NCBI RefSeq assembly: GCF_003065405.1
Contig: NZ_CP026947.1
Span: 1 to 64,000 of the forward strand
Source of the DNA: Corynebacterium yudongzhengii
GTDB lineage: Bacteria > Actinomycetota > Actinomycetes > Mycobacteriales > Mycobacteriaceae
Direction of reading: 5' to 3'
Length of the DNA: 64,000 nt
Part shown: piece after piece, positions 11,344 through 52,459 of the stretch
How positions within the stretch are numbered: the first letter of the stretch is position 1
How the letters are laid out: each line of letters starts with the position of its first letter
Position numbers and translations under genes: made by a program
Notes under the pieces: model-generated
What the model was told of the DNA's origin: nothing
Database searches by the model: none
Seen by the model: the letters and a program-made list of their open reading frames with translations, nothing else

Positions 11344-11613
11344 TTAAAAATCGCCCTCGCCGGCCGCCCGGCGCTCATAGACCCGGGCGCAAAAGGCCGC
11401 GAACTCCGCATTCGACGAGGTCAGCGGCTCGAGCCGGCGCAGGGTCTCCGCCAGCGCCGCCGAGGTGTGCGTTGGGGAGGTGAGTACGGCGACGCCGTGG
11501 AGGCGGGCCGTCGTCACGCTTGCTGCCGCGACCAGCGCCGAGTAGCTGCGCACGCGGGCGGGGTATTCAGCGGTGAAGATATCCGCCAGGGCGAGAAGTT
11601 GCTCCGGGCTCAC
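11344..11613 (-). CDS. Small Doc/Fic-like protein with degenerate active-site motif
   Basis: This 89-residue protein starts at GTG, overlapping the stop of the RHH gene by 4 nt (GTGA), so it is the second gene of a coupled pair. The sequence LLALADIFTAEYPARVRSYS, then ALVAAASVTTARLHGV, then a Leu-rich helix, follows the spacing of the Doc branch of Fic proteins. The catalytic HPFxDGNK motif is replaced by EPLTSSNAEF, so AMP- or phosphotransfer by the canonical mechanism is not expected. It may be an inactive or repurposed toxin. The Doc relationship is an inference from pattern and gene order; an unrelated small helical partner cannot be excluded. Confidence 0.5.
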   Translation of the reverse strand: MSPEQLLALADIFTAEYPARVRSYSALVAAASVTTARLHGVAVLTSPTHTSAALAETLRRLEPLTSSNAEFAAFCARVYERRAAGEGDF

Positions 11614-11825
11614 CGCTGGCCTGCCTGGCGGATGCGGTTCTCGGTGCGGCGGTACTCGTCGAGCGTGTCGCGGGCGAGGGCGGCGACGCGGGCGTCGTCC
11701 AGCGTGCGGGCGGCGGTGCTGACGATGGCATAGGCGGCCGCTTGGTGTTTGCTGCTGCCGTGGGCGGCGGCGAGGAGGGTCAGTGCGTGGTCTTGCTCGG
11801 GGGTCAGTCTCAAGGTCATGGCCAT
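11610..11825 (-). CDS. Ribbon-helix-helix (CopG-type) antitoxin-like protein
   Basis: The 71-residue protein begins MAMTLRLTPEQDHALTLLA. The short strand MTLRL followed by TPEQDHALTLLAAAHGSSKHQAAAYAI is the classic ribbon-helix-helix DNA-binding pattern of antitoxins. The C-terminal half (DARVAALARDTLDEYRRTENRI) would be the partner-binding tail. The downstream gene overlaps it by 4 nt, the usual antitoxin-toxin order. A short inverted repeat just upstream may be its operator. It diverges from gyrA. Confidence 0.65.
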   Translation of the reverse strand: MAMTLRLTPEQDHALTLLAAAHGSSKHQAAAYAIVSTAARTLDDARVAALARDTLDEYRRTENRIRQAGQR

Positions 11826-11834
11826 AGGACAAAA

Positions 11835-11853
11835 TGGTAGTAGTCTGATACCA
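11835..11853. promoter_or_regulatory. Inverted repeat upstream of the RHH gene (candidate operator)
   Basis: TGGTA (11835-11839) and TACCA (11849-11853) form an interrupted palindrome about 10 bp before the RHH start, in the divergent interval with gyrA. RHH antitoxins commonly repress their own promoter through such sites. Confidence 0.4.
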
Positions 11854-11943
11854 CATTGCGGGCATGCAAGCCGTATCAGCGCATCTCAAGGGGTAGAGTA
11901 GGAGTGTTCCATTGCTCTTTGTCAGATTGCAGAGAAGGTGCCC

Positions 11944-37188: not shown

Positions 37189-38049
37189 CTACCGGTCGGA
37201 GGAATCGATAATACGGACTTCGATGTGCGAATGGCCGACGGTGATCACGTCACCGTCGGCGAGCAGCCAGTTCTCGATGGCGCTGTCGTTGACGGTCGTG
37301 CCGTTCGTCGACTGCAGATCGACGAGCACCGCATCGGTGCCGTCCCACGTGACTTCCGCGTGCTGACGGGATACCCCCGTATCCGGCAGGCGGAAATCCG
37401 CCTCGTTGGAACGGCCGATGATGTTCGAGCCTTCCTTGACGTGGTAGGTCCGCGACGAGCCGTCCTGCAAAAGCAGCGACACCGAACGGCCCGGATGGGC
37501 CGGCTCCCGGTCGCGGGCCTCGTCTGATGCGGAACCCCGGCTGGCATTCACCGTGGGGGACACGGTCGTCGGCGCTTGGTGGTCGTGCTGAGAGTCCATC
37601 GGGCCCCTATCATTGTCGGTGTCATCCACAGGATCGTGGTCGATGGCATCGAAGCCACTCTCGTGTTCCGGGTCGGACCACGCGAAAGACGACACCCGCA
37701 GCTGGCCGGTGTGCACCCCGGATTCCTCCGCGATGCGCACCACCGTCGGGCCGTAGAAGTCCCAGCCCTGGTTCCGGCCGAAGCGGGCCGTCTGGTCCGC
37801 CAGGCGTGCGGGTAGGTCTTGATCCCGCGAGAGATTCTCCAGATCCTTCGAGGAAACCCCCACCATATAGATGTTGGGGGCGAAGATCTGATCATCCTCC
37901 GTCGAGGCCAGGTTATCCTGCGCCTCCTGTTTGATCAGCTCCTCGATCTCCGCGGGCACCACCCGGCCACCGAAGATGAGCGCGAATCCGTTATCGAGGC
38001 CGCGCTGGAGCGTGCTGTCGAAACGAGCGAAGCGATCCATAAGGCCCAT
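37189..38049 (-). CDS. fhaA: DUF3662/FHA protein FhaA
   Basis: The 286-residue cytosolic protein has an N-terminal DUF3662 domain (about 1-125; MGLMDRFARFDSTLQRGLDN, FGGRVVPAEIEELIKQEAQDN) and a C-terminal FHA domain (about 205-285; NIIGRSNEADFRLPDTGVSRQHAEV, LQSTNGTTVND). In mycobacteria FhaA binds phosphorylated MviN/MurJ and limits peptidoglycan synthesis, and the same role is likely here. I start at MGLMDRF, preceded by AAGGAGG; an open frame extends 84 nt further but lacks family similarity. It is the first gene of the minus-strand operon. Confidence 0.94.
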   Translation of the reverse strand: MGLMDRFARFDSTLQRGLDNGFALIFGGRVVPAEIEELIKQEAQDNLASTEDDQIFAPNIYMVGVSSKDLENLSRDQDLPARLADQTARFGRNQGWDFYGPTVVRIAEESGVHTGQLRVSSFAWSDPEHESGFDAIDHDPVDDTDNDRGPMDSQHDHQAPTTVSPTVNASRGSASDEARDREPAHPGRSVSLLLQDGSSRTYHVKEGSNIIGRSNEADFRLPDTGVSRQHAEVTWDGTDAVLVDLQSTNGTTVNDSAIENWLLADGDVITVGHSHIEVRIIDSSDR

Positions 38050-38291
38050 CGGATATCGCGCCTCCTTCCCGGTGTCGTTTGTCTGTCCTGTGTCTACATC
38101 GTTGCATGCGACGCCCTGGCAGGCCGCTGGCAACGACCTCCGGGACGTGGATGAAGCAATTATAAGGGGTAGAAAGCATAAACTCGTAGCCGCAAAGCCC
38201 TTATCCCGCTCCTGGCCAGCTCACCGCGCTGCTGTTGAACAGGCGATTTGTCCGAAATCCGGGTCCTCATGCTATGTTAGTCAAGTCGCCC

Positions 38292-38375
38292 GCCCGGGTG
38301 GCGGAATTGGCAGACGCGCTGGCTTCAGGTGCCAGTGTTCGCAAGAACGTGCGGGTTCAAGTCCCGCCCCGGGCA
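38292..38375 (+). tRNA. tRNA-Leu (CAG anticodon)
   Basis: An 84-nt type II tRNA with a long variable arm (GTGTTCGCAAGAACGTG). The acceptor GCCCGGG pairs with CCCGGGC, the anticodon loop TTCAGGT gives CAG, and the T-arm has GTTCAAGTC. CCA is not encoded. Insertion-sequence debris starts about 240 bp downstream. Confidence 0.97.
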
Positions 38376-38401
38376 CTCTGTGCAGTTCTCGAACTGCAGG
38401 C

Positions 38402-38451
38402 ACCGGAGGTCACAAACTCGAAAGAGGGTGTGACCTCCGGTTTCTTTTGTT
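38402..38451 (+). terminator. Terminator after tRNA-Leu
   Basis: ACCGGAGGTCACA pairs perfectly with TGTGACCTCCGGT (13 bp), followed by TTCTTTTGTTT. Confidence 0.92.
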
Positions 38452-38619
38452 TCTAGGGTCGGGTGGTTGCGGAATGGGCATTGTGGGGATCTTGCCCGCA
38501 GGTTCTGGTTTGGGCGAGTGGATCGTGATCATCGGGCGCCGCGAGGGGGCAGCTGCGATCGAAAAGATTAACCTCCCACGGTGGTTTCAACCGGTCGTTG
38601 CAACACCTCCTCTGATTGA

Positions 38620-38838
38620 GTGAGGGATTGTGTTGGGAACTCGACGAGTAAAGAGGGCCCGGGCCGGCGCCCGCTATCGGAGCAACGTCACCGTTTCGCC
38701 CAGCTGCGTGCACGCGACAGCATTCGACAGGCCGCCCGCGAGGCCGGGGTATCCGAGTCCGCCGGCAAGAAATGGACTTTCGGCGGCAACGTCTACCGCG
38801 ACGGCATAATGGGGTTCTTCCGGATCTGGAGTGCGTGA
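38620..38838 (+). pseudogene. Transposase N-terminal fragment (IS30-like HTH)
   Basis: The frame encodes RPLSEQRHRFAQLRARDSIRQ, then AAREAGVSESAGKKW, the helix-turn-helix start of IS30-type transposases. It then runs into unrelated sequence and a stop after 72 codons. The DDE catalytic part is missing. Part of a patch of decayed mobile DNA from about 38.5 to 39.25 kb, in which 38840-39060 shows nothing recognisable. Confidence 0.55.
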
Positions 38839-39059
38839 GCGGTGCTGATCGATAACATGTAGGTGGCTTGGCCAGCTAAATCCTGAAGAGCCTAATTATT
38901 CTGGTTCTCCGGACCATGCTGTGGGCGGCCTGGCATCCCAGGGAGAGCCCGGCGGCGGTGGTCGTTGGGATGGCGTCTGGAACTGTCACCAGTTTTGACT
39001 TGTGGAGAATGAACCCGCCGACAGGGGCGTAGGTGGAGGCGGTACCCGAGATCACACCC

Positions 39060-39239
39060 TCAGCAGAGTGCCCGGAAGCTGCGCGTTTGGAATGCCCCGG
39101 ACGCTAGCCCCACCTGCGCGACCTGCGCGCCGGCGCGGCAGAATTCGGAGCCGAGGAACATCACCTGTTGATCATCGGCGTCGGCGGCTGCCATTCGGTC
39201 GAGCTTGGAGAACACGATGACCTTATCGCGGTAGTTGCA
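39060..39239 (-). pseudogene. Recombinase fragment (serine resolvase/invertase-like)
   Basis: On the minus strand 59 codons read YRDKVIVFSKLDRMAAADAD, then DQQVMFLGSEFCRAGAQVAQ, before a stop. FSKLDRMA resembles the S-(R/K)-LDRLA motif in serine recombinase catalytic domains. The N- and C-terminal parts are absent. The assignment rests on this short motif, so it is tentative. Confidence 0.4.
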
Positions 39240-39268
39240 CCTCTGCGGCGTCGCCGACGTGCGGTTCG

Positions 39269-39472
39269 TTAGTAGTCATTGCGGAGATTGTTTCGCTGTG
39301 GGTTGGATTTGTTCAGGTAGATCTGCATCGGCAGCAGGAGAACCAGCGCAATGATCAGTCCCAGCCACCACGGGAAGGAGGTCGCAAAGACAAGTGCGAG
39401 CAGCGCAATCATGACGATGACGCTGACGAGGGTGACAACAGAACGGGTAGTGAAGGTCTTCACAGTATTCAT
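39269..39472 (-). CDS. Small membrane protein in the ABC exporter operon
   Basis: A 67-residue protein with two transmembrane segments (VVTLVSVIVMIALLALVFA and PWWLGLIIALVLLLPMQIYL) and a polar end (NKSNPQRNNLRNDY). It begins 43 bp after the permease gene on the same strand. No family recognised; possibly an accessory of the exporter. Confidence 0.6.
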   Translation of the reverse strand: MNTVKTFTTRSVVTLVSVIVMIALLALVFATSFPWWLGLIIALVLLLPMQIYLNKSNPQRNNLRNDY

Positions 39473-39515
39473 CCTTTTCTGGTGGTGTGGTGCGGTGGTC
39501 GGTGACGAGATGGGG

Positions 39516-40769
39516 TTAGGTGGAAGACAGGGCTTCCCGGAAGGAGACGGTGGTGCCGCTGCGCAAGACCGAGTTTGAGTAGATGCGTCCTGCCAGTGCG
39601 ATCGCCGCAGCCAGTGTCAACAGGGCTATCGCCAGGCTGACCAGCAGCTGCCACGGTGCGACATCGCCGGCGGTCACGAAGACTGGCATCGCGAAAATGT
39701 TGGTCACCGGCGCGTAGGACAAAATCTCTAACGCAGCACCGTTCGGCTTTTCGAAGGCCAGGAATACGACCGCGGCGAACGGAACCATCAGCAGCAGGTA
39801 GACCGGCTGGGTGGCGGTGGAGACGTCGTCCGGGTGGTCGACACGGGCGGCCATAGCGGCCATGAAGGAGGCCAGCAGCGGCACACCGATTAAGACACTG
39901 ATGACGCCGACGACGACCAACTTGACGGGGATTCCCTCAAAGGAGATGCCGTCGCCGAACAGTTCTAGTCCCGCCCAGGTGGCGGCCAGGACCGCGGCGA
40001 CCTGGAGAATGCCGATGATGGTGATCGCGATGATCTTTCCGGCCAGCAGCTGCCACGGGCGCAGCGTCGCCAGCAGGATTTCGACGACACGGGTGGTTTT
40101 CTCCTGGACTACGTCGTTAGCCATGGTCGCGCCCCACAGGAGCACGATGAACACGATTGTCAGGCCGGTGCCCAACGCGAAAAGCAGCGTCGGCATATCG
40201 ACGACGGCTTGTTCGAGGATGATCGGGGTGACGGTGGCATCGGAGACGGCCTCGGTCAACTGCTCTGGGGTAGCGCCGGCTTCGACGGCAGTGGACGTCA
40301 ACGACTGGGTGGACAGCAAGGTCTGCAGCGATTCCAGTAACTGTGGGCTCACCGCCTCCGAGCTGACCAGTGACCAGCTGCCGTCAGCGGCCGGGGTCAG
40401 GTAGGCGTCGACGTCGCCGTTGGTGACGAGTGCTTCGGCTTCGTGCTTGTCCGCGACTTCACGGATTGACCAGGCGCCCTGAGCGCCGGATTCGAGGAGC
40501 CCCGTTAATCCGCCGGACTCCGGCGGAATCGCGATGACCGAGGTGTTGTCACCCCCGCGGTTGAGCAGGGCCGGGGTGAAGAAGGCGACCGCGGTGAAGG
40601 CGATGGTGCTCCACAGGTAGCCGGGGGTCAGTAGCTTGGCCTTCAGCTCGCGGAACAGGACCGCGAAGACGACGGACCAGCGGTTGGTGCCAGCGGTGCG
40701 TGCCAGCTGTGGACGTTGGGAAGGGGGATCGGAGATATGTGGTGGGGGAGATTCATCCAGCGTTGTCAT
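39516..40769 (-). CDS. ABC-2 type transporter permease (NatB-like)
   Basis: The 417-residue permease is started at MTTLDESPPPHISDPP with AAGGAAA before it. It has one N-terminal membrane segment (YLWSTIAFTAVAFFTPAL), a large extracytoplasmic domain (about 70-190) and then five to six C-terminal segments. The conserved VQEKTTRVVEILLATLRPWQLLAGKI loop is typical of ABC-2/NatB permeases. Export of sodium, drugs or peptides is known for relatives; the substrate here is unknown. It follows its ATPase gene by 59 bp. Confidence 0.85.
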   Translation of the reverse strand: MTTLDESPPPHISDPPSQRPQLARTAGTNRWSVVFAVLFRELKAKLLTPGYLWSTIAFTAVAFFTPALLNRGGDNTSVIAIPPESGGLTGLLESGAQGAWSIREVADKHEAEALVTNGDVDAYLTPAADGSWSLVSSEAVSPQLLESLQTLLSTQSLTSTAVEAGATPEQLTEAVSDATVTPIILEQAVVDMPTLLFALGTGLTIVFIVLLWGATMANDVVQEKTTRVVEILLATLRPWQLLAGKIIAITIIGILQVAAVLAATWAGLELFGDGISFEGIPVKLVVVGVISVLIGVPLLASFMAAMAARVDHPDDVSTATQPVYLLLMVPFAAVVFLAFEKPNGAALEILSYAPVTNIFAMPVFVTAGDVAPWQLLVSLAIALLTLAAAIALAGRIYSNSVLRSGTTVSFREALSST

Positions 40770-40828
40770 GGTGTTTCCTTCAGGCGTGGTGGGAAGGGTG
40801 CTCGGTGGTGCTGTTTTGTTTCTGTGCG

Positions 40829-41770
40829 CTAGGCCGCTGCGGTGGTGGGGGAGTCCGCCGTGCCGGACATGGCCGCGGAGTAAATCTCGGTCAGCGGCGG
40901 CAGCCACTGGTAGAAGGCAGTGAGGTCGCCGCTGCGGCGGATAACGTCAATGATGAGCTGTTCGTCGAGGTGCTCGGAAATTTTTACGCGGGTGTGGTTG
41001 CCGTCTTGTGCTTGGACGGACAGATGCTCGGCGTCGTTATCGAGGGCCCGCTCCAGTTGCGACAGCCACGTGGCGCGGGCGACGGGAGTCTCGATGACAT
41101 ACTGTCGTCCGACCGCGCTGCCCAGTTGCTCGTAGGTGCCTTCGGCGATGATGCGGCCGTCGCGCAGGATGCCGATGCGGTCGCAGAGCTTCTCGACTAA
41201 TTCGAGCTGGTGGCTCGAGAAGACGACCGGGATGCCGCGGTCGGCTTCCTCGCGGAGAATGTTCGCGATCGTATTCACAGCACCCGGGTCCAATCCGGAG
41301 AATGGTTCATCCAAGATGAGGGCGGCTGGTTCGTGCACTAGGGCGGCGGCCAGCTGTACGCGCTGCTGGTTACCGAGGCTCAGCGATTCAAGCGGGCTGT
41401 CGAAGCGGCCGGACAGGCCTAAGCGGTGAAGCCAGTAGTCCGCGGCGGCGCGGGCCGAGCGGGCAGTGACACCGTGGACGACGCCGAAGTAAGTCAGCTG
41501 GTCGACGAGTGTCATCTTTGGGTAGAGGCCGCGCTCCTCGGGCATGTAGCCGATTGTCGAGCGCACTCGGTCATCGATGGGGCTTCCGTTTAACCTCACC
41601 GTGCCGGAGTCGGCTTCGCTGATGCCGAGCATGATGCGCATGGAGGTGGTTTTGCCGGCGCCGTTGCCCCCGACGTATCCATAGAGCTCGCCTGGAAGGA
41701 CATCGAGACTGATGCCGCGCAGCACCCGCCGGGAGGTGTAGCTCTTGCTGACATTGTTGAGCTGGAGCAT
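40829..41770 (-). CDS. ABC transporter ATP-binding protein (NatA-like)
   Basis: The 313-residue ATPase begins MLQLNNVSKSYTSRRVLRGI. Walker A is GGNGAGKTTSM, the Q-loop region is IGYMPEERGLYPKMTL, and the signature is ESLSLGNQQRVQLA, where LSLGNQQ replaces LSGGQ as in NatA-type exporters. Walker B is LILDEPFSGLD and the switch His is in FSSHQLELVEKL. About 100 C-terminal residues form an accessory domain. It is first in a three-gene operon divergent from an XRE regulator. Confidence 0.88.
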   Translation of the reverse strand: MLQLNNVSKSYTSRRVLRGISLDVLPGELYGYVGGNGAGKTTSMRIMLGISEADSGTVRLNGSPIDDRVRSTIGYMPEERGLYPKMTLVDQLTYFGVVHGVTARSARAAADYWLHRLGLSGRFDSPLESLSLGNQQRVQLAAALVHEPAALILDEPFSGLDPGAVNTIANILREEADRGIPVVFSSHQLELVEKLCDRIGILRDGRIIAEGTYEQLGSAVGRQYVIETPVARATWLSQLERALDNDAEHLSVQAQDGNHTRVKISEHLDEQLIIDVIRRSGDLTAFYQWLPPLTEIYSAAMSGTADSPTTAAA

Positions 41771-41810
41771 GGTGTTTTCCGTTCGCTGTGGTGATTACAC
41801 CCCCGAAGAT

Positions 41811-41831
41811 ACAACGATGTGTTGTGTATAT
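41811..41831. promoter_or_regulatory. Inverted repeat in the ABC/XRE divergent promoter region
   Basis: ATACAAC and GTTGT(G)TAT form an interrupted palindrome in an AT-rich 129-bp divergent interval. It is a plausible operator for the adjacent XRE-type regulator. Confidence 0.4.
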
Positions 41832-41899
41832 GCAATGTTTTTATGTAAATAAGGGCAGAAAGTGTTGTTCGTGCAAAGGTCAGGTGCTACGCTGGGTCT

Positions 41900-42148
41900 A
41901 TGCCGAGGAAGAAAGAGGTGCGTCCGCTCTACAACCGCCTGCGGGTGTTGCGGACCGAGATGGACCTGTCTCGCAAAGCCTTGGCTGACAAGGTTGACGT
42001 CAACCACCAGACCATCGGTGCGTTGGAGCGGGGCGAACACACTCCCTCGCTCGACTTGGCGATGGCCATTTGCGCGGTGTTCGACTTACCCGTCGAGTCG
42101 GTATTTAGCAGAGAACCTTTCACCTATTCGCCAGACGATTACAGGTAA
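41900..42148 (+). CDS. XRE-family (Cro/CI-type) transcriptional regulator
   Basis: An 82-residue protein that is almost entirely one helix-turn-helix domain (NRLRVLRTEMDLSRKALADK, then VNHQTIGALERGEHTPSLDL). Small XRE proteins of this type commonly control a neighbouring exporter or membrane gene. It is divergent from the NatAB-like operon and 80 bp upstream of a membrane protein gene. No clear ribosome site was seen. Confidence 0.85.
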   Translation: MPRKKEVRPLYNRLRVLRTEMDLSRKALADKVDVNHQTIGALERGEHTPSLDLAMAICAVFDLPVESVFSREPFTYSPDDYR

Positions 42149-42228
42149 GAATTCCGGAGCGTGCTTCCGGGATTAGTTACGTTTGCGGAAAATCATCGAG
42201 ACAAGCGGAGCTGGAGGACCTTGAAGCG

Positions 42229-42648
42229 ATGAAGACAAGAAAAATAGCAGCCATCAGTGCTGCGGCAGTCGCCTGGCTCGTGCTCATCGGTGCGACCCTG
42301 GCGACCGCCTTCGGTTCTATAATCTGGTGGGTAGCGCTTGTCGTGTTCATCCTCTGCTGGCTGATCACTCGCTCCGCCACCCGAGACATTGCTGAAACCC
42401 AGTCCGGGTATCTGGACGAGTACGAACGCAGCCTCAAGTCGCGAGCCTTTACCGCCGGATTCTGGGTTGCGATCGGCGCCGGCGTCGTGCTCATGGTCTT
42501 TCTTGCGGTCATCGGTCAATCCGGTGGAGTCTGGGCCGAGGATGTCCTCCAATCAGTGTGGCAGCTCATCCTGGCTGTGCATCTGCTGATCGCCGCGACA
42601 CCGACCTTCTGGTTGGGTTGGATCACCCGGGAAACTCCCCAGGAATAA
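42229..42648 (+). CDS. Uncharacterised four-segment membrane protein
   Basis: The 139-residue protein has four hydrophobic segments: two at the N-terminus (IAAISAAAVAWLVLIGATLA; IIWWVALVVFILCWLI), then a charged loop with DEYERSLKSRAFTAGF, and two more (FWVAIGAGVVLMVFLAVI; LILAVHLLIAATPTFWLGW). It pairs with the XRE gene just upstream, an arrangement seen in small stress or bacteriocin-related operons. No family assigned. The putative mobile element begins about 50 bp after its stop. Confidence 0.65.
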   Translation: MKTRKIAAISAAAVAWLVLIGATLATAFGSIIWWVALVVFILCWLITRSATRDIAETQSGYLDEYERSLKSRAFTAGFWVAIGAGVVLMVFLAVIGQSGGVWAEDVLQSVWQLILAVHLLIAATPTFWLGWITRETPQE

Positions 42649-42710
42649 CTCTGAGTCGGGGCCCGGTAGCGCCGACTTGGGCTCACCATACAGTCGACAT
42701 ACGGGGGCGC

Positions 42711-43431
42711 CCGTAGACAGTGCACTCACTTGCATCGAAGATCGCCCTCGACAACGAAGTCCGACTCAGCCCCCTTTCTTGACCGTGACCGGCGACCACC
42801 GTCGTTGCCGTCCATGTCCACTCCGGCTTACGCGCCGAACCTGAAGGGTTGCTCGGCCTAGCCCACATCTTCGAGCATATGCGTTTTCGAACGCGCCGCC
42901 GGCTCCGTGGGCGATTCTTTCTGACGGCCCTGAACGGTGCTGTTGCGAACTCACATTTTGAGCCCACTATGCGAAGGCTGGCTTGCTCGCGGCATTGCTG
43001 TGTCGGCAACAGATTCTGACTGCTCTGTGTTGTCAGCGATTGGCGGAGGATGACGGTCATGTTATTCATGGTCTGGTCGCTGTGTGGCTCAACGATGATT
43101 GGCATCGGCAAGACCCTCGGGGAAGCACTACTAGTTGACTCCAGCCGGGGCTCGACACGAATGTCTTTTCGGTGTCGGGAATCGGCGTCCGTAATCTGTG
43201 GAAAAAATGAATTGCACCCTTGCCATTCCAGCCTGGTTCCAGTACTGTGATGTAAAGCACAATTAAATGCCCGCATGAAGGAGCTAGAAGCGTCCTCTGG
43301 GCGGCCCACTCGGGGCCAGGGATAAAAACGCAGGACTCGGATCCTCCGAGGACTGCATGCCGCAGAGAAATCTGTGGCACAGGGGTCGGCGACCGTCGGC
43401 GGCCCGCACGCTGGACCCGAGGAGTGGCGCG
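42711..43431. other. Left non-coding arm of the putative element
   Basis: About 720 bp with no supported gene. Open frames on the minus strand here have no protein-like composition. A GGACTCGGATCCTCCGAGGAC-type hairpin region (about 43333) and a possible promoter around TTGCAC (43212) precede the RHH-like gene. Confidence 0.4.
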
Positions 43432-43668
43432 ATGATTGTGATTCCGGCCGGACGATACGGCCCCAGCAAGGCCCGCGAGGTAGCCGCGGATTCCCTGGTG
43501 CGGATCGATCTCCGCATTCCCGTGTGGATGGCCCGTGAGCTGACGATCCGAGCCTCGCAGGGCAGGCAATCCCGCAACGCCTACGTGGAACAACTACTGG
43601 TGGTGGAACTGCGCCGGGATCGTGGTGATCCCGGCCTTCCTGCGTTTCGGGACAGCCCGCAGGGTTGA
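43432..43668 (+). CDS. Small RHH-like protein
   Basis: A 78-residue protein started at ATG after GAGGAG (7-nt spacing). Its middle part, SLVRIDLRIPVWMARELTIR then ASQGRQSRNAYVEQLL, fits a ribbon-helix-helix pattern (strand LRIDLRIP-like, then two helices). It is the first gene inside the putative mobile element and may regulate it. A second short open reading frame (about 43624-43727, GTG start, ending EDARYH) overlaps its end and may be a real partner or a frameshifted tail. Confidence 0.45.
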   Translation: MIVIPAGRYGPSKAREVAADSLVRIDLRIPVWMARELTIRASQGRQSRNAYVEQLLVVELRRDRGDPGLPAFRDSPQG

Positions 43669-43792
43669 CCCGGATATCGATGATGAAGGCCGTGTCATCG
43701 ACGTCGAAGACGCACGCTACCACTGAGACCACAGAGACAGGAGAGGAAACGACGACACAAGAATACTTAGTGGACCCGCACCAACACATAAA

Positions 43793-43851
43793 GCGGGGCC
43801 AGATCCTGGAAGATCCGGCCCCGCCGATAGCTCAAGTTCCAGAAGAACTTG
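43793..43851 (+). promoter_or_regulatory. Two consecutive RNA hairpins before the leader peptide
   Basis: Hairpin 1: GCGGGGCC(A)GATC pairs with GATC(C)GGCCCCGC (43793-43824). Hairpin 2: CAAGTTC-CAGAA-GAACTTG (43833-43851), a perfect 7-bp stem with a 5-nt loop. They sit 48 nt before the leader start and could gate expression of the recombinase genes. Confidence 0.6.
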
Positions 43852-43898
43852 AACTGCCATTCCCTCTCAAAAACCTCTCAGAGCCTTTAGGAGGAGAC

Positions 43899-43976
43899 AT
43901 GTCTATTCTGACATGCCCGCACGATATCAGCAACCACCAAACCGACCATCTGTACGAAGAAATGGGGTGGGTCTGA
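43899..43976 (+). CDS. 25-codon leader peptide coupled to the recombinase gene
   Basis: The ATG at 43899 follows AGGAGG (4-nt spacing), the strongest ribosome site in the neighbourhood. It encodes the 25-residue MSILTCPHDISNHQTDHLYE-type peptide and ends in TGA whose last base is the first base of the recombinase ATG. Translation of this short frame probably delivers ribosomes to the recombinase start, which has no ribosome site of its own. Confidence 0.55.
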   Translation: MSILTCPHDISNHQTDHLYEEMGWV

Positions 43977-45052
43977 TGGCACGCTTCACGAAAATGGCTG
44001 CTGCGGAACCACCCGAGGAGGACCCGAAGAAGGATCCGCTTAGCTCTGCCAGCGATGCAGCGTCTCGCCATGATCACGGCTTCATGGCCGCCCGCCGCAA
44101 ACCCCGGATTCATGATCACCTCCGCTACGACCGCTTGTGTTCCTTCAGAATCAAGAAGCCGAACCCGGATTTAGCCAGGGATGCCATCAAGGTTGCAGCT
44201 CATGTCTGGTCCTGCACGGGCAAAAAGTCAGACAAACGCGACGCCGATGCCGTGAAATTCCTCGCGAACTATCTCTACGACGTGTCGATATTCTACGGTG
44301 ACATCGACCCCCGCAGAGCCCTGAAGCGCGATGCGGTCGATTCCTGGCTGGCGGCGGCTAAGCATAAGTCGACCAGTGCTCGTACTTACAAGACCGTGCT
44401 GCATACGGCCGGGCGGGTGCTCTACCCGGGGTCTTTCCCGCCGGTGCTCAGTTACAGCAAGCCTCGTTCCCGTCCCGTGGTGCCGGCTAGTCCGGAGTTG
44501 ATCCGGGAACTATATGCCAACTGCACGAGCCTGCCTGAGGTGCATAAGCGTCGAACGCAGCTGATTCTGGATCTGGCCTATCAGGCAGGCTTGCGGTCCT
44601 CGGAGATACTTGATCTGCGCGGCAGTGACGTCACCGCACTGACTCTGGAGACCGGGGAAACTGTCGCCCTTATCCGTGTCCATCGCAAGGGGAAGATCGA
44701 CCGGATCGTCCCGGTGATCTGCCCGGTACGCAGCCGACGCCTCCTTGCGCGTGCCCAAGAAGTAGGCCGCGCGTATTTCCTGCCCACCCCGTCGGGAAAG
44801 CGCCCGCATACCTCCACTATCGGCAATGCGTTTAGCTATCTGCGGGCACGAGGGTTTGCCTCCACCACGGTCGAAGCGCTGAGGGTTCGCTGGATGCTGG
44901 ACATGGTCAACTCCACTTTGCCGACCGCCACGGTGGCCCGGCTATGCGGAAACTCCCTGTTTCGTTCCCTGGACTACCACTCGGAGCACTTGGCTGTCGT
45001 TGAGCCGGAACGACTGGCAGAGCTGCTGCTGCGCGCACGGAGGCTGTCATGA
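43976..45052 (+). CDS. Tyrosine recombinase-like protein with altered active site
   Basis: A 358-residue protein started at MARFTKMAAAEPP, sharing one base with the leader stop. The N-terminal half (about 60-160) looks like a core-binding domain. The C-terminal half has the box I pattern LDLAYQAGLRSSEILDLRGSDV (Arg207), a beta-turn Lys in RVHRKGKIDRIVPV (about 240), VEALRVRWML (Arg303) and LDYHSEHL (Tyr334). The usual His of HxxR is Glu (EALR), and the usual LGHS is CGNS. Arg-Lys-Arg-Tyr remain but both His/His-type positions are changed. It overlaps the next gene by 4 nt. It is either a divergent active recombinase or an accessory DNA-binding derivative. Confidence 0.7.
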   Translation: MARFTKMAAAEPPEEDPKKDPLSSASDAASRHDHGFMAARRKPRIHDHLRYDRLCSFRIKKPNPDLARDAIKVAAHVWSCTGKKSDKRDADAVKFLANYLYDVSIFYGDIDPRRALKRDAVDSWLAAAKHKSTSARTYKTVLHTAGRVLYPGSFPPVLSYSKPRSRPVVPASPELIRELYANCTSLPEVHKRRTQLILDLAYQAGLRSSEILDLRGSDVTALTLETGETVALIRVHRKGKIDRIVPVICPVRSRRLLARAQEVGRAYFLPTPSGKRPHTSTIGNAFSYLRARGFASTTVEALRVRWMLDMVNSTLPTATVARLCGNSLFRSLDYHSEHLAVVEPERLAELLLRARRLS

Positions 45053-46809
45053 CCACCGCAGTATTGTCCTACAGACTGACCAATGAGGTCTTGGAGCGTT
45101 CCTACACTGTGGTAGATCGCTCCGGAGCAGCCGTGTTGATCGACCAGTGTGCTGAGGAATGCCGGGGCGAGGGTGGGCGTCGACCTGTCGGCGTCATCCC
45201 GAGCATGACCACCTATCTTGCTGTGGCCTTGGCGACGATGATGATCCCGACAACGCCTACCGTCAGACGGATCCACCGGTGCATCGACCAGATGAGCCTT
45301 CAGCAGCGCCGTATCGTGGGATTGGATCATGACGGCCCCATCGCCAGTTACTCCAGCCTTCACGCCTGGCTGACCCGCCGGTTGAAGCCACTGGATTCCG
45401 GGCCCGACCTTCCCGCCAGGCGCGTGAGCAACGCCAGTCACCGTGCGATGATGGCCGCGCGGACACTCGAGCAGCAAGAGGCCGCCGCACAGGCTAAGGA
45501 TCTGCTGCACACGGTCGTTAACCTCCTGATCGCTGGCAGTATCGACGACAAGAATCCCGTCGGCGGCGTCGGCGACGTGGTTGCCGACGAGACGATCATC
45601 AGCCTGGCTGGCCCGACGGAAGGCCTCGGTAGCAAGGACGACAAGATGCGGGGTGCTGCCTACATCGGCGCATATTATCTCCGCGACAGGGGTTCCGGTT
45701 CGGTCGTTCTTGGCGAGGGAGCACGAGAGATCAGCAAGCAGGGATTCGGCCTTGGCGTGACTGCTTTATCAAGGGTGGGGTCGAAGAAAAATCTGTATGG
45801 GATCGCCCCAGTCATCACGGCCATCGGCATCGACAAGCCATCGCCGGGTTCTGTTGAGGCGTTGTCGGTGGCCCTTCACCATCACCGGCTTAACGGTCTT
45901 GATCAGCGCAAGAACGCCCCTAACGCGGAACTGCCGAACATGTGCCTGGATATGAGCTACAGCGTGCGCAAAGGTTTTACCTCCATGGTGCTGCGGCAAG
46001 GCTACGCACCGGTAGTGCGCTACCCGAAGAATCGTCAAACCGTTTGGGCCAGCGCCGGCCACGACGACGAGGAGAAACAATCCCCTGGGCCAATACAGAT
46101 CGACGGGACGTTTTATTGTCCGGCTGCGCTGCCGTTAGTCAAGGGACGACGGCTGGTAGGCAGGCTCAAGGATCTCCTCGATGCGCCCGACGGCTTCGAG
46201 GCCCATGACCAGGCGTTACAGAAACTTTTTCCGTTGATGATGGGCACGAACACCAGGCCCTTCGCCTCTCGGTCGAAAGCAGACAATCCGTTTGCCACCA
46301 AGGCGGAGATAGGTGAGGTGCACAAGATCGAGCTGGTCTGTCCTGCTGTGCAGGGGCGGGTGAAGTGTCGGCTGAAGCCAGATTCGCTGCTGGAGTCCTT
46401 CGACAAGCCGGAAGTGCACCCAGAGTGGGAGGCGAGCCGTTTTCGCTGCTGCTTACAGACGACCATGAAACACGTGTACTCCGAGGAGCAGTGGAAGCTG
46501 GCAGCGTGGGCAATGGTGCCGGGAAGCTGGGAACACGCGATCTACTACGAAGCCGCCCGGTCTTTGACTGAGCAACGCTTCGCCATCATGAAATCGCAGT
46601 ATGTGACTAGTCTGCAGGACCTGACCTGGTCGGCACGCCGCGAACCCTTGTTGTGCCTGACCATTGGCTTATGGGTGGCAGCGACCAACATCGCCATCCA
46701 GGGGGCTCATGCTCGAAACCCCCGGCGTCCGAACTCGATGGACCTGCGGTTTCGGCAGTTGGAAAGCTACCTCGGCCGTTCACCTATGAAGACTCCGCCA
46801 CGGACGTAA
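45049..46809 (+). CDS. Large DDE-transposase-like protein
   Basis: A 586-residue protein whose ATG overlaps the recombinase stop (ATGA). I know no named family for it. Several segments look like a RNase H-fold DDE transposase: GDVVADETIISLAG (Asp180), a strand with NMCLDMSYSVRKGFTSMVL (Asp301) followed by VRYPKN, a roughly 150-residue insertion, then EAARSLTEQRFAIMKS (Glu508), the typical place of the catalytic Glu before a basic helix. The N-terminal 110 residues (PTTPTVRRIHRCIDQ) could bind ends. It is far too short for a Tn3-type TnpA. A perfect hairpin follows its stop. Confidence 0.6.
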   Translation: MTTAVLSYRLTNEVLERSYTVVDRSGAAVLIDQCAEECRGEGGRRPVGVIPSMTTYLAVALATMMIPTTPTVRRIHRCIDQMSLQQRRIVGLDHDGPIASYSSLHAWLTRRLKPLDSGPDLPARRVSNASHRAMMAARTLEQQEAAAQAKDLLHTVVNLLIAGSIDDKNPVGGVGDVVADETIISLAGPTEGLGSKDDKMRGAAYIGAYYLRDRGSGSVVLGEGAREISKQGFGLGVTALSRVGSKKNLYGIAPVITAIGIDKPSPGSVEALSVALHHHRLNGLDQRKNAPNAELPNMCLDMSYSVRKGFTSMVLRQGYAPVVRYPKNRQTVWASAGHDDEEKQSPGPIQIDGTFYCPAALPLVKGRRLVGRLKDLLDAPDGFEAHDQALQKLFPLMMGTNTRPFASRSKADNPFATKAEIGEVHKIELVCPAVQGRVKCRLKPDSLLESFDKPEVHPEWEASRFRCCLQTTMKHVYSEEQWKLAAWAMVPGSWEHAIYYEAARSLTEQRFAIMKSQYVTSLQDLTWSARREPLLCLTIGLWVAATNIAIQGAHARNPRRPNSMDLRFRQLESYLGRSPMKTPPRT

Positions 46810-46824
46810 AAACCACCGAGACAT

Positions 46825-46863
46825 CGACCCCTGCGCCGCAACTTTCTTGGGGCGCAGGGGTCG
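46825..46863 (+). terminator. Hairpin terminator after the DDE-like gene
   Basis: CGACCCCTGCGCC pairs exactly with GGCGCAGGGGTCG around a 13-nt loop, 15 bp after the stop codon. There is no clear T-run, so it may alternatively be an element-end structure. Confidence 0.6.
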
Positions 46864-46968
46864 AACACGTTTCTTGCTGGCGCCAACCCGCTGGACTTTA
46901 GGGACCGTTCCTTGCGAACACTGCGTGAGTCACCGTCTTACGGGGGCGCGGACTGTGTCGGGTAGGCG

Positions 46969-47118
46969 GCGAAGAAGAGACGGCGTCGTCTGAGGGTTGC
47001 CTACACCTCCCGCAATAACGACGTCCTGGCGCTGGCTGGGGAGGGCGTCAACCCGCTGGACTTTCCGTATTTCTGGACTGGACATTCTCCGCTGATTCCG
47101 GGGGCCATCTGCATTTGA
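46969..47118 (+). pseudogene. Coding-like remnant right of the element
   Basis: An open frame after a TAG reads AAKKRRRRLRVAYTSRNNDV, then LALAGEGVNPLDFPYFWTGH, then SPLIPGAICI and a stop. It looks like the C-terminal end of a lost gene. The 16-mer CAACCCGCTGGACTTT inside it (47049-47064) also occurs at 46884-46899 within the element end. The rest of 46864-47286 shows nothing else except the terminator at 47135. Confidence 0.35.
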
Positions 47119-47134
47119 GATGCGCTCACTCTGT

Positions 47135-47180
47135 ACGGAGGCTGCCGGCTCTTTGATGGGGCAGGTGGCCTCCGTTTTGT
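47135..47180 (+). terminator. Strong intrinsic terminator
   Basis: ACGGAGGC pairs with GCCTCCGT, with an inner TGCC/GGCA stem, followed by TTTTGTT. It resembles a genuine operon terminator whose gene has been lost (see the remnant just upstream). Confidence 0.8.
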
Positions 47181-47286
47181 TCGTCCTAATCTTAAGCTTC
47201 AAAAGACGGCACTAAAGGATTGCGCTATCCGCACGGTGGCTATCGGAAGCGAACCCAAAACTTAAAAATAATTAATAAGTTTTTGT

Positions 47287-48009
47287 GTGGCTAACATAAG
47301 GGTTATGCCTATTGGAATGCTAAGCGAACGCTTGGGGATGTCAGTTCCGACGATCAAGTATTACGTCAGGGAAGGCTTGATCCCGCCGCCTTCGAGAGTA
47401 TCTGTGAACCAGGCGGATTACACCGAGGATCACTTCTATCGCCTCACCTTGATTAACCTGCTCACGGTCATCGGCGAGTTTAAGTTAGAGCAAATCCGGG
47501 AAATTTTAGGGCTTATTGATAAAAAGGCGAGCGTGCGGAAGGTTGTGGGTGTCATGCTCACCCTTCGGGACAAGATCTTCCCTTTTGAGCGTGGTGGGGA
47601 TGAAAAGTGGGCCGCGCAACTGCTGTTAAAAGAGGGCGTGGTTAAAGAGTCGCACGAGCTCGAGCCGATGGAGCGCCAGCTGCAGGATCTCTTGGCGAGT
47701 ACTCCAGAGGAATTTCAGCCCGTGGTGGAGCGATACTTTGCCCGCTACGTAAGCATCGCCAAGCAGATTTCCGAGCTCGACGCCCAATTCTTCGACGACC
47801 TTGCCATGGTGAAGTCAAGCCCGGCCCCCCTTGCCCTTTTCGTCGTGTCGGGAGTGCTGATGCGCCGTCGCGTTCTGGACAGCCTCATTACTGGCAACAC
47901 GTTGGCAACGTTTGCGGGAAGTGACACTCCGCTGACTTTTGATGTTGGATGGTCGCTTCACGACGACCTCGCCCTCGATTCCAACCGCAAAAGCGTTACC
48001 GAACCGTAA
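47287..48009 (+). CDS. MerR-family transcriptional regulator
   Basis: A 240-residue protein with an N-terminal winged helix (MPIGMLSERLGMSVPTIKYYVREGLIPPPSR) followed by the usual YTEDHFYRLTLINLLT helix and a long effector region of about 165 residues. The latter resembles TetR-like ligand domains in size more than the short metal-binding MerR tails; no Cys cluster is seen. The GTG at 47287 or the ATG at 47305 could be the start; neither has an ideal ribosome site. It precedes the surface-protein gene by 325 bp and is a candidate regulator of it, but this is only positional. Confidence 0.85.
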   Translation: MANIRVMPIGMLSERLGMSVPTIKYYVREGLIPPPSRVSVNQADYTEDHFYRLTLINLLTVIGEFKLEQIREILGLIDKKASVRKVVGVMLTLRDKIFPFERGGDEKWAAQLLLKEGVVKESHELEPMERQLQDLLASTPEEFQPVVERYFARYVSIAKQISELDAQFFDDLAMVKSSPAPLALFVVSGVLMRRRVLDSLITGNTLATFAGSDTPLTFDVGWSLHDDLALDSNRKSVTEP

Positions 48010-48607: not shown

Positions 48608-51600
48608 ATGACCAACGCGCAAAGCATCCTTTCGGGACATGCTTACGTGTTGGATAACGCAAACCTAGGCTCCACGGCGACGGGTAACTCCCCGGTGCCG
48701 GCAGGCACGACCGTCTACATGCAGTGGATCGATCGTGATGGTGCTGTGTCGCCAGTCTATGCAACGAAGACCCATGATGACATGGGCGGCGGAGATGGTG
48801 CCCAGAACGGTCCCGGCGCTTATGTCTTCGACCTGCGCCAGCCTTGGGTTGACCTTGCCGGTAACGAGCACACTTACACCGCGTCGAACGGCCAGTCGTA
48901 CCGTCTCTGGATTGAGCCCTACGAGGATCCGGTCACGGGTACACTGTTGCAACCGCTCCGTCAGAACGGTGGTGTGTTCCCCGGCGCCTTCCGTAACTCG
49001 GCGGGGGCGGACCAGTCTGGTGCTTTGAACTTTATTAACGTTAACATGCAGCGCACTGCTGTCTTCATGGCTCCGCCAGCCGACTACGGCGTGGAAGACT
49101 TGGTGCTGCCGGAGGAGGAGTGGGTCAAGGACGACCAAGGGCCGATTTCGAACCCAGCTGTTAACACGAGCGCCAAGCATACTGTTTCGGGCCGTGTTTG
49201 GATCGAAAACACTGATGCGCGCCTAGATGGTCCTGGCAAGGATTCGGCTGATCCTGCTGCCGTTGGCTACGAAGTGGTAATGTCGACTCTGACACCGGAG
49301 GGTATTACTGCCTACAGTGAGCGGGTAGAAAGGTTTCCGCAAAAGAACCAGACACAGGCAGCTATCGAATTGCTGCGCGAGAACCCCGACTTCATTGCAA
49401 CTACGGTTGTTGGCAAAACCGATGAAGAGGGCCGTTACACTCTCCGATTCCCAGAAGATCCTGACCTAGGTCAGACTTTGACTAATCAGAGCGAACGCTA
49501 CCTCTTCGGATTTGTTCGTGACCGCGACGGTAATGTCCGCAAAGCTTACTCGCCGTTCGCTATGTCAACCTACGAGTGGCCGGACAAGATGATTTCGTTC
49601 ACGCCACAGGCGGTTCCGGCACAGAATCTCGCTACGAGACCGATGTGGCATAATCTCCACTTCGCGGTTCTTCCTTACGCCGCTGCTTCTCTCGAAATCA
49701 CCAATTTCGATATGCTCGAGAAGCCGGGTTACGCAGGTCAAACTGCAGAGATCGAGGTCACCGGCCAGCTCTCTGATCTTCTGCCGAACAAGATTGAGTG
49801 GACTAAGGAAGACGGCACGGTCCTCAAGACCTGCGAGAACTTGACCAGCTTGGAACAGGTTAACGCTTGTACGCTCGAGATTCCTGCAGAGATTGAAAAC
49901 GATGAGATCGTGACCGCTAAGCTGTTCACTGGCTCCAATGTGATCGCGGCTGATTCCTTCATCGTGAAGAAGCTCGCCGAGGATTTGGTGCCGAACTACG
50001 AGGACGGCACCGTGCAGCAAGGCCGCGAGGAGACTATCCCCGCGCCGACCTTCGACAACGAGCGCACGGAGGAAAAGGAGACCGAGCCGGCTCCGGAGGG
50101 CACCACCTTCGCCCCGTCCGAAACGAAGGACGGCGACGAGCCCGCTAACAACCCGGATTGGGCTGAAGTCGAGCCGAATACCGGTGCCATCACCATCAAG
50201 CCCGGTGCGGACGTTGCGGTCGGTGACTACGAGGTGTGGGTTGAGGTTACCTACCCGGATGGGTCCAAGGACAAGACGTCCGTCCCGATCACCGTTACAG
50301 AGAACAACCCCGACAACGCGGCATTCGACCCCTCGTACGAGCCGACTAACGTGACCGTTGGCGAGAGCAGCACCACCAACGATCCGTTTGAGAACGCGGA
50401 AGAAGCGGCCCCGGTTAACAACGCTTCCACCAAGGAAGGATTTGAGGCTGACGGCTGGACTTTCGAGGTCGATCCCAACACCGCGGTAATCACTGGTAAT
50501 GCTCCGAGTCTGGACGAGCTGACCGAGCGTTTCAACGGCTTGGACGAAGGGCAGAAGGGTGACCTGACCAAGGTTGCTGAGGGCCTCGGCGAGGACCTGC
50601 TGAACCCGACCGTTCCGGTTGAGATCACCTACGGTGATGACACCACCGATGAGACCAACGCTAACTTCCAGCTCGTTGGTAAGGACGGCAACCCGATCAC
50701 CGATCCGAACGGCGACTTCGATGGCGACGGCGTCTCGAACAGTGACGAGATCGAGGGCGGGTCCAACCCGTTCGACGAGAACGACACTCCGGCAGAAGAG
50801 CCGGCTGCACCGGTTATCCCGGATCCGGTAGCAAAGCAGATCGAGACTCCGCGCGGTGACGTTCCGTCCGCGGAATCGGGCATTGAGAACGCTGGCGACT
50901 TCCCCGAGGGCACCACCTTTGAGTGGAAGGAGCAGCCCAACGTCGAGCAGCCGGGCCCCATCTTTGGCACGGTTGTCGTGAACGTTCCTGGCCAGGATGA
51001 GCCGAAGGAAGTTGCCGTCCCGATCACCGTTCAGAGTGACGCGGACGTTTTCAACCCGACCCCGCAGGAAGTTTCCACCAACATCGGTGAAGAACCTAAC
51101 TCGGATGACGGCATCGCGAACCTGAACGATCTGCCTACCGGTACGACCACCGAGTGGGTAGACACCCCGGACGTCTCGACCGAAGGTGTGGTCCCGGCAG
51201 AGATCACGGTCACCTACCCCGATGGATCCAGCGAGACCGTCGGCGTGACCGTCAAGGTCAACGATCCGACCGATGATGCTGGCAAGTTCGATCCGTCCTA
51301 CGACCCGACCCAGGTCAAGGGTGGCGAGACCGCTCAGACGAACGATCCGTTCGCTGGCGCTGAAGACGCCGAGGTCAAGGGCGCTAACGTTCTGGACGGC
51401 TTCCAGGCTGATGGCTGGACCTTCGAGGTTGACCCGAACACCGCGATCGTCACGGGTACCGCGCCGGGCCTGGATGTCCTGGCTGAGCGTTTCAACGACC
51501 TGCCTGAAGTGCGGAAGGGTGACCTGGTCCTGGTTGGCCAGGAGCTCAACGAGGTTCTGAACCCGAATGTCCCGGTGAACATCACCTACGGTGACGACTC

Positions 51601-52459
51601 CTCCGAGACGGGCAACGCCCAGTTCCAGCTGGTCGGCCAGGACGGCAACCCGATCACCGATCCCAACGGCGACTTCGATGGCGACGGCGTCTCGAACGGC
51701 GACGAGATCGAGGGCAGTTCCAACCCGTTCGACGAGACCTCCACGCCTGAGCCCTCCACGCCGGTCGACGAGAACCCGCCGTTGATTAACCCGGTGGATA
51801 CCGATGATCGTGAGATCACTGGTACCGGTGAGCCGGGTGAGGAGATCACGGTGACCCTGCCGGATGGCACTGAGATCACCACTGAGGTGGATGATGAGGG
51901 TAACTGGACTGTTGAGGTCCCGGAGGGTACTGAGCTCAACCCGGGTGGCACCGTCAGTGCGAATGACGGTAATGGCAACAAGACCGAGATCACCGTCACC
52001 GGCAACGGCACCGACACCGACAACGGCTCCAGTGCGGGCAGCGTCGATATCCTGCGCTGTGGCAGCAGCGTCGGCATCTCCCTGCTGCCGCTCCTGCTGA
52101 TCCCGGGTGCCCTGGTCGGTGAGGTCTTCCGCCCGCAGATCCAGGAAATCAACAACCGGATCCAGCAGCAGCTCGGCCTCTTCAACCCCGAGCTCGCCCG
52201 TCTGGCCAACGAGTACCGCCACGTCTTCCAGGGCATCGCAGGATTTACCGCAGTGCTGACCAGCATTGGCCTCATCGCCAACGCCGTCAACGCTTGCTCC
52301 CCTACGGAAGGTGGTTCCTCGTCCAGCTCCAACAACGAGGATGAGGGCAGCTCCGCCAACGGCGGCGGCTCCGGTTCCTCCATCGAGGGCGGCTCTAGCT
52401 CCTCCTTCGGTGCAGGTTCCTCGTTCGGATCCTCCCGCGGATCCAGCTTCTCCTCCTAG
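48608..52459 (+). CDS. Large YPDG/Rib-type cell-surface protein (main frame)
   Basis: The open frame is 1,283 codons from the first internal ATG, but homology-like sequence begins before it, so the native product would be about 1,375 residues with the signal peptide of the previous entry. An N-terminal region of about 450 residues is followed by YPDG-type modules (VEVTYPDGSKDKTSVPITV; ITVTYPDGSSETVGVTVKV). Two copies of a roughly 120-residue unit each hold DGWTFEVDPNTA and end in a calcium-binding-like DPNGDFDGDGVSN, DEIEG, SNPFDE. An Ig-like module with EITVTLPDGTEITTEVDDEG is next. The C-terminus has two hydrophobic stretches and a Ser/Gly-rich tail but no LPXTG motif. It is probably an adhesin or biofilm protein. 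Its TAG stop is completed by the IS inserted there. Confidence 0.85.
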   Translation: MTNAQSILSGHAYVLDNANLGSTATGNSPVPAGTTVYMQWIDRDGAVSPVYATKTHDDMGGGDGAQNGPGAYVFDLRQPWVDLAGNEHTYTASNGQSYRLWIEPYEDPVTGTLLQPLRQNGGVFPGAFRNSAGADQSGALNFINVNMQRTAVFMAPPADYGVEDLVLPEEEWVKDDQGPISNPAVNTSAKHTVSGRVWIENTDARLDGPGKDSADPAAVGYEVVMSTLTPEGITAYSERVERFPQKNQTQAAIELLRENPDFIATTVVGKTDEEGRYTLRFPEDPDLGQTLTNQSERYLFGFVRDRDGNVRKAYSPFAMSTYEWPDKMISFTPQAVPAQNLATRPMWHNLHFAVLPYAAASLEITNFDMLEKPGYAGQTAEIEVTGQLSDLLPNKIEWTKEDGTVLKTCENLTSLEQVNACTLEIPAEIENDEIVTAKLFTGSNVIAADSFIVKKLAEDLVPNYEDGTVQQGREETIPAPTFDNERTEEKETEPAPEGTTFAPSETKDGDEPANNPDWAEVEPNTGAITIKPGADVAVGDYEVWVEVTYPDGSKDKTSVPITVTENNPDNAAFDPSYEPTNVTVGESSTTNDPFENAEEAAPVNNASTKEGFEADGWTFEVDPNTAVITGNAPSLDELTERFNGLDEGQKGDLTKVAEGLGEDLLNPTVPVEITYGDDTTDETNANFQLVGKDGNPITDPNGDFDGDGVSNSDEIEGGSNPFDENDTPAEEPAAPVIPDPVAKQIETPRGDVPSAESGIENAGDFPEGTTFEWKEQPNVEQPGPIFGTVVVNVPGQDEPKEVAVPITVQSDADVFNPTPQEVSTNIGEEPNSDDGIANLNDLPTGTTTEWVDTPDVSTEGVVPAEITVTYPDGSSETVGVTVKVNDPTDDAGKFDPSYDPTQVKGGETAQTNDPFAGAEDAEVKGANVLDGFQADGWTFEVDPNTAIVTGTAPGLDVLAERFNDLPEVRKGDLVLVGQELNEVLNPNVPVNITYGDDSSETGNAQFQLVGQDGNPITDPNGDFDGDGVSNGDEIEGSSNPFDETSTPEPSTPVDENPPLINPVDTDDREITGTGEPGEEITVTLPDGTEITTEVDDEGNWTVEVPEGTELNPGGTVSANDGNGNKTEITVTGNGTDTDNGSSAGSVDILRCGSSVGISLLPLLLIPGALVGEVFRPQIQEINNRIQQQLGLFNPELARLANEYRHVFQGIAGFTAVLTSIGLIANAVNACSPTEGGSSSSSNNEDEGSSANGGGSGSSIEGGSSSSFGAGSSFGSSRGSSFSS

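Follow-up and report, generated by a model that had tools for sequence, protein, structure and literature searches.

Tn4430-type Tn3 elements combine a DDE transposase, a TnpA of about 1,000 residues, with a tyrosine recombinase and make a 5-bp target duplication. Tn7 likewise duplicates 5 bp of its target and has an asymmetric end layout, transposases of the IS4 group carry the signature Y(2)R(3)E(6)K, and integrase-type genomic islands at tRNA genes are recognized by a tRNA 3' target, tandem accretion, cargo and an identity block. Site-specific DDE transposons underlie tools for targeted DNA insertion, the known ones needing several proteins (TnsA/B/C/D or CRISPR parts). Faure et al. (2023, PMC10293859) showed that the target of the Tn7-like transposon Tn6022, comM, is selected by TnsF, an inactivated tyrosine-recombinase protein, and that Tsy uses a relative of TnsF whose recombinase domain is active. 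Here, we analyzed the first 64,000 nucleotides of the Corynebacterium yudongzhengii contig NZ_CP026947.1 (the window) and describe an element at 38380-47127 that is probably an 8.75-kb site-specific DDE transposon, standing behind a tRNA-Leu(CAG) gene and encoding a 586-residue transposase together with a 358-residue protein of tyrosine-recombinase fold (the YRec-like protein). Its defining features are listed below.

38292..38376, + strand: tRNA-Leu(CAG), the target gene (ARAGORN)
38375..38379, + strand: left target duplication ACTCT, identical to the right copy
38380..38448, + strand: left end, terminal GTGCAGTTC..GAACTGC and hairpin with T-rich tail, a module kept behind tRNA-Leu in relatives
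43357..43668, + strand: small ribbon-helix-helix (RHH)-like protein, a putative regulator (Pfam HicB E 0.0089, under the curated cut-off)
43793..43826, + strand: inverted repeat between the RHH-like and YRec-like genes, with counterparts in relatives (nine upstream regions aligned); fold z -4.9, terminator-like on the - strand
43976..45052, + strand: YRec-like protein, 358 codons (weak Phage_integrase match)
45049..46809, + strand: DDE transposase, Tn5-like RNase H fold, D180/D301/E508, 586 codons
46884..46899, + strand: subterminal repeat copy 1, CAACCCGCTGGACTTT
47049..47064, + strand: subterminal repeat copy 2
47106..47127, + strand: right end, ..TGCATTTGAGATGCGCTC (compared with relatives' right ends in different sites)
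47128..47132, + strand: right target duplication ACTCT
47135..47176, + strand: terminator-like hairpin with T-rich tail (fold -30.5 kcal/mol, z -4.5), presumably the original terminator of the tRNA gene, pushed away by the element

The two large genes overlap by ATGA at 45049-45052, as described in the original prediction, and the same pair recurs in 34 of the 35 loci compared, which supports the proposal made there of a distinct mobile system pairing an integrase-fold with a DDE protein. A search of genome contigs returned 29 loci with an alignment as query and 0 with a single protein, and no relative was found in the plasmids, phages and viral contigs searched; in the 2.51-Mb host genome the 586-residue gene is present as a single copy. 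Its product matches nothing in Pfam at E up to 10 or in NCBIfam at E up to 1. The DDE fold already proposed for it holds in a structure model, for which the best Foldseek match is Tn5 at 2.5e-3, with none at E <= 0.001. The protein shares the RNase H fold with the Tn5/IS4 group and carries a motif E(2)R(3)E(6)K, the R, E and K of which are invariant and exactly spaced in 44 members of the family, Glu standing where the IS4-group signature has Tyr. It differs from that group in this replacement, in the 5-bp duplication, in its strict site specificity, in having a partner protein and in almost lacking a match to the Pfam model DDE_Tnp_1 (one of the 44 members, at E 0.22, and not the window protein); rve, the family of TnsB-type transposases, is absent from the Pfam families listed for the 44 members at E up to 1. 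It is presumably the DDE protein that performs the chemistry.

Junctions were tabulated for 28 elements (26 with a transposase gene plus L107 and L111), and in 25 of them the 5 bases behind C72 of the tRNA equal the 5 bases behind the right end. The 28 elements have 18 different left 5-mers, and over 100,000 permutations the number of equal pairs averaged 2.1 and did not exceed 10. The right-end words for this table were fixed after the junctions had been viewed; a frame-free test again gave 25 of 28, with equality for 25 of 726 foreign 5-mers and a permutation maximum of 11, and with one element per distinct 5-mer 16 of 18 pairs were equal. Outside the table are duplicates of tabulated loci as well as L004, L015, L018, L064, L067, L070, L072, L073 and L075, the omissions being due to an unreadable right end or the lack of a matching tRNA flank. 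In L005, where another insertion lies at the tRNA, the right 5-mer matches even so, and related elements in different hosts carry the 5-mers of their own hosts (L021/L030, L022/L024, L012/L014). An integrase crossover could give equal host-specific 5-mers only if the overlap of each element matched its host beforehand, whereas a DDE staggered cut yields them directly; judged by their sequence, the junctions look like DDE target duplication. L108 and L118 have an uninterrupted site, GGGC-ACCAT-CGAAATCC, on the right of another insertion, and L107 has the filled one. In G053, the genome whose tRNA is the most similar, tRNA-Leu is likewise followed by ACTCT, with no left-end module behind it. Both a 5-bp target duplication and a single orientation at one conserved site are seen in the family, as in Tn7-like elements. 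The idea that any rho-independent terminator is targeted was dropped, the flanking hairpins being tRNA-Leu flanks or the left ends of neighboring elements.

The ends themselves were defined by comparison with relatives. Between near-identical elements that occupy different sites, the common DNA stops at a right end of the type ..AACCGCTC, which lies ~240-345 bp past the transposase gene (~1.3 kb in L062 and L066, with another open reading frame (ORF) between). By eye, a hairpin follows the right end in most loci, though not in L064 and L067, where the right end looks truncated; in many loci it is one conserved module, which in the window stands directly behind tRNA-Leu(CAG) and folds strongly into a hairpin whose tail is rich in T (RNA fold -40.2 kcal/mol, z -6.8). 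Because in transposase-less copies this module follows tRNA-Leu(CAG), with the right end and a different terminator kilobases on, it represents the left end, and loci in which a right end meets a left end are for that reason tandem insertions. The left end GWGCRGTTC.. and the right end ..GAACCGCWC form an inverted repeat of ~9 bp, weaker in the window; it is so short that a simple search at the left did not reveal the right end in inverted form. At the right end, the best internal repeat pair lies, by eye, at two of three fixed distances from the end (~245, 80 and 58 bp) in 18 of the 28 elements, L005 and L063 (similar distances, weak similarity) not being counted; in the window the distances are 244 and 79 bp. 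The letters of this repeat vary between lineages, and the pairs beat all of 12 shuffles each in only 12 of 28 elements. The asymmetric layout is a likeness to Tn7.

The original prediction had placed the ends at 42700 and 46949, bounded by an 11-bp direct repeat, whereas the relatives put them at 38380 and 47127, with the 5-bp direct repeat outside. The 11-bp repeat TACGGGGGCGC is indeed present at 42700 and 46939 (2 matches, 0.13 expected for the chosen word), but it was rejected as the element ends: 11 exact 11-mer direct-repeat pairs occur in 41500-48000 against 7.7 +/- 3.6 in 200 Markov sequences, so that such a repeat is not unusual. An inverted repeat at 43366/46825 was likewise rejected, the relatives placing the ends elsewhere. 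A host-locus interpretation of the conserved right flank was abandoned, as was the view that a small conserved cargo gene marks the left end.

In 17 of the 26 tabulated elements with a transposase gene, tRNA-Leu(CAG) lies upstream of that gene on the same strand and contig (window, G143, G010, G085, G036, G199, G005, G091, G177, G225, G226, G227, G230, G232, G233, G235 and G237); in the remaining nine the two are on different contigs, and any other order occurs in no case. The distance between them ranges from ~7 kb (window) to ~43 kb (G036), and many sites therefore hold larger or several elements. A right end meets a left end, by eye, in 15 of the 28 loci, and in G236 a single strand carries two full transposase genes separated by 8.4 kb. 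Both ends are also present in L111 and L107, in whose genomes no full-length transposase match was found, which suggests that these copies moved in trans and are probably non-autonomous cargo carriers. The only match in G109 is to a transposase of a sister family, described below.

The partner protein had been credited with an Arg-Lys-Arg-Tyr layout, which stands for the window copy (R207, K238, R303, Y334) but not for the family: among 28 aligned YRec-like proteins, Lys is found in 5 and Tyr at the nucleophile position in 1. The two Arg are mostly retained (21 and 27 of 28), the rest of R-K-H-R-H/W-Y is not conserved, and a Pfam Phage_integrase match at E 0.01 is reached by 4 of 28. A tyrosine-recombinase fold without its nucleophile thus characterizes the family, as it does TnsF, the window's own copy retaining the Tyr. 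TnsF is further marked by N-terminal zinc fingers and tandem CB domains; in the window protein, 358 residues long, residues 1-39 are modelled with low confidence. We consider it likely that this is a family of former tyrosine integrases in which the nucleophile and most active-site residues were lost and the DNA-binding fold was kept. With Tyr missing in nearly all relatives and junctions like those of DDE target duplication, the suggestion that both chemistries are used is not supported; the other suggestion, that the recombinase fold serves for binding only, fits the data, except that binding of the target appears more likely than binding of the ends. Most likely, the YRec-like protein recognizes the tRNA-Leu 3' end and brings the transposase there.

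A DDE transposon with an integrase-derived target selector is in our judgment the most economical account, and a probable one. The 586-residue Tn5-like transposase would cut and join the element ends and insert them, in one orientation, at a cut staggered by 5 bp just past tRNA-Leu(CAG), which would leave the 5-bp duplication, the target being ACNNN starting at A73 of the tRNA gene. The YRec-like protein would select this target as TnsF does for Tn7-like Tn6022, the left-end hairpin would ensure that the tRNA gene still has a terminator-like structure once the element is in place, and further insertions at this tRNA would build up tandem arrays. The account draws, at the level of sequence comparison, on the ends, the single target and orientation, the 5-bp duplication, the gene pairing, the DDE residues and the loss of integrase residues in relatives. 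If the selector role holds, the window element would follow the same principle as Tn6022, an inactivated tyrosine-recombinase protein selecting one conserved chromosomal site for a DDE transposon with target duplication, yet it is not a Tn7-like member. Tn6022 has TnsA/TnsB/TnsC/TniQ and targets comM, whereas here a Tn5-like transposase is found at tRNA-Leu(CAG); a Pfam scan of 8 proteins encoded in 38380-47127, from which smaller or broken ORFs were left out, showed none of these four.

Since tRNA 3' ends are classical integrase targets, a tyrosine recombinase could instead move an integrative element by crossover at this site, with the DDE-like protein as accessory or passenger. The locus does share the tRNA 3' target, tandem accretion and cargo with integrase-type islands, its ends form a core-like inverted repeat, and the window copy has Arg, Lys, Arg and Tyr as well as a Phage_integrase match. 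It departs from such islands in lacking an identity block, in the absence of the nucleophile from 27 of 28 aligned proteins, with only four of the 28 reaching the Pfam model, and in its host-derived 5-bp duplication, equal in 25 of 28 junctions, where an unmatched crossover overlap would differ between the two sides; we regard this reading as quite improbable. It is also unlikely, if a little easier to imagine, that the integrase-fold protein controls transcription of the transposase, in the manner of the phage regulators MrpR, YopR and SroF, which have the same fold, and that the transposase finds the tRNA site itself. A YRec-like protein still active as a cointegrate resolvase, like TnpI in Tn4430, seems very improbable: Tn4430-type elements also unite a DDE transposase with a tyrosine-recombinase protein, their 5-bp duplication is alike, and the conserved inverted repeat with a 6-base center between the RHH-like and YRec-like genes could be a resolution site, but the transposase here has 586 residues and matches no Pfam family, and its partner belongs to a degenerate recombinase family, the nucleophile being lost in relatives.

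Several observations weigh against a transposon with an integrase-derived selector. Three of the 28 junction pairs differ, namely L111 (ACCAT/ACCAC, from a genome without a transposase match), L025 (ACATA/ACAGA) and L068 (ACAAT/ACCAT, a draft with the tRNA on another contig), and the window's own site was unoccupied in 0 of the 60 other genomes searched with the right flank. Together the two ends make up an inverted repeat whose spacer is 5-7 bp, which also looks like an integrase core site. The window's YRec-like copy, with its four residues kept, cannot be called inactive from its sequence; another Tyr stands 8 residues further on in 15 of 28 relatives (Phe in several), and a shifted nucleophile is conceivable in this family. 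Target choice, finally, might not involve the YRec-like protein at all and lie with the transposase alone.

The remaining features of the locus are a host gene outside the element, just upstream of the target tRNA, and, in the DNA between the left end and the RHH-like gene, about 4 kb of presumed cargo of this one element.

37189..38133, - strand: host gene fhaA (ORF as listed; Pfam FhaA_N 8.2e-31, FHA 1.4e-18)
39516..40907, - strand: cargo ABC-2 transporter permease (ORF as listed, the real start probably downstream; Pfam ABC2_membrane_3 6.7e-32)
40829..41770, - strand: cargo ABC transporter ATPase (Pfam ABC_tran 3.9e-28)
41900..42148, + strand: cargo XRE-type helix-turn-helix regulator (Pfam HTH_3 7e-12)
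42229..42648, + strand: cargo small protein with many hydrophobic stretches, probably a membrane protein (ORF; no Pfam match above cut-off)

The small RHH-like gene and the small ORF between it and the coupled pair are present as first described. A fragment like the N-terminus of a serine resolvase (by eye) lies in the cargo region at 39100-39250 on the - strand, and just beyond the element, 48608-52459 encodes a large surface protein in which Rib and RibLong domains are recognized. At tRNA-Leu insertions in several corynebacteria (L065, L069, L107-L110), an island of metal/copper-handling-like genes (by eye) is found adjoining, with a duplicated 3' end of the neighboring host gene, and to the right of the tandem junction of L068 an ORF (9708-10604) resembles an Erm-type rRNA methyltransferase. 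A second insertion type occupies the same tRNA-Leu(CAG) 3' end in L108 (4796-6223), L118 (reverse strand), L142, L144, L160, L167, L169 and L176; its left end is GTGAAGTCTCGAGACAT-like, and the L108 copy has, by eye, an IS481-type transposase and a ~15-bp direct repeat of the tRNA end.

The sister family comprises transposases of 22-24% identity (L051, L053 and L058 among them); in L051, L054 and L058 an integrase-like ORF, recognized by eye, immediately precedes the transposase gene. In 3 of 8 sister loci examined (L210, L211 and L216, near 11500-11910), the downstream side of the transposase abuts the 3' end of tRNA-Pro(CGG); in L214 a tRNA-Arg 3' end lies ~1.5 kb beyond, behind other DNA. 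By eye, the element adjoins a direct-repeat array resembling CRISPR in L213 (11560-11750, right side) and the apparent 3' end of a glutamine synthetase gene in L212 (12600-12800), and L209 and L215 have no clear target. These loci hint at several targets in the sister family. The broader proposition is that widespread actinobacterial site-specific transposons use a retired tyrosine integrase, without TniQ or an AAA+ hub, to guide a Tn5-like transposase directly to tRNA 3' ends and, in the sister lineage, to other conserved sites, as an independent invention of integrase-derived selectors; for this we see even chances. A literature search found no paper on this gene pair, most subscription journals and all bioRxiv preprints being outside its coverage. 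If the proposed system is real, little more than two genes would place several kilobases of cargo at a single site that is conserved and harmless, a simpler arrangement than those known, and the ability of an integrase fold to address a foreign transposase becomes directly testable. It would also account for the hot spot of cargo that Corynebacterium and other Mycobacteriales have behind tRNA-Leu(CAG), next to fhaA in the window.
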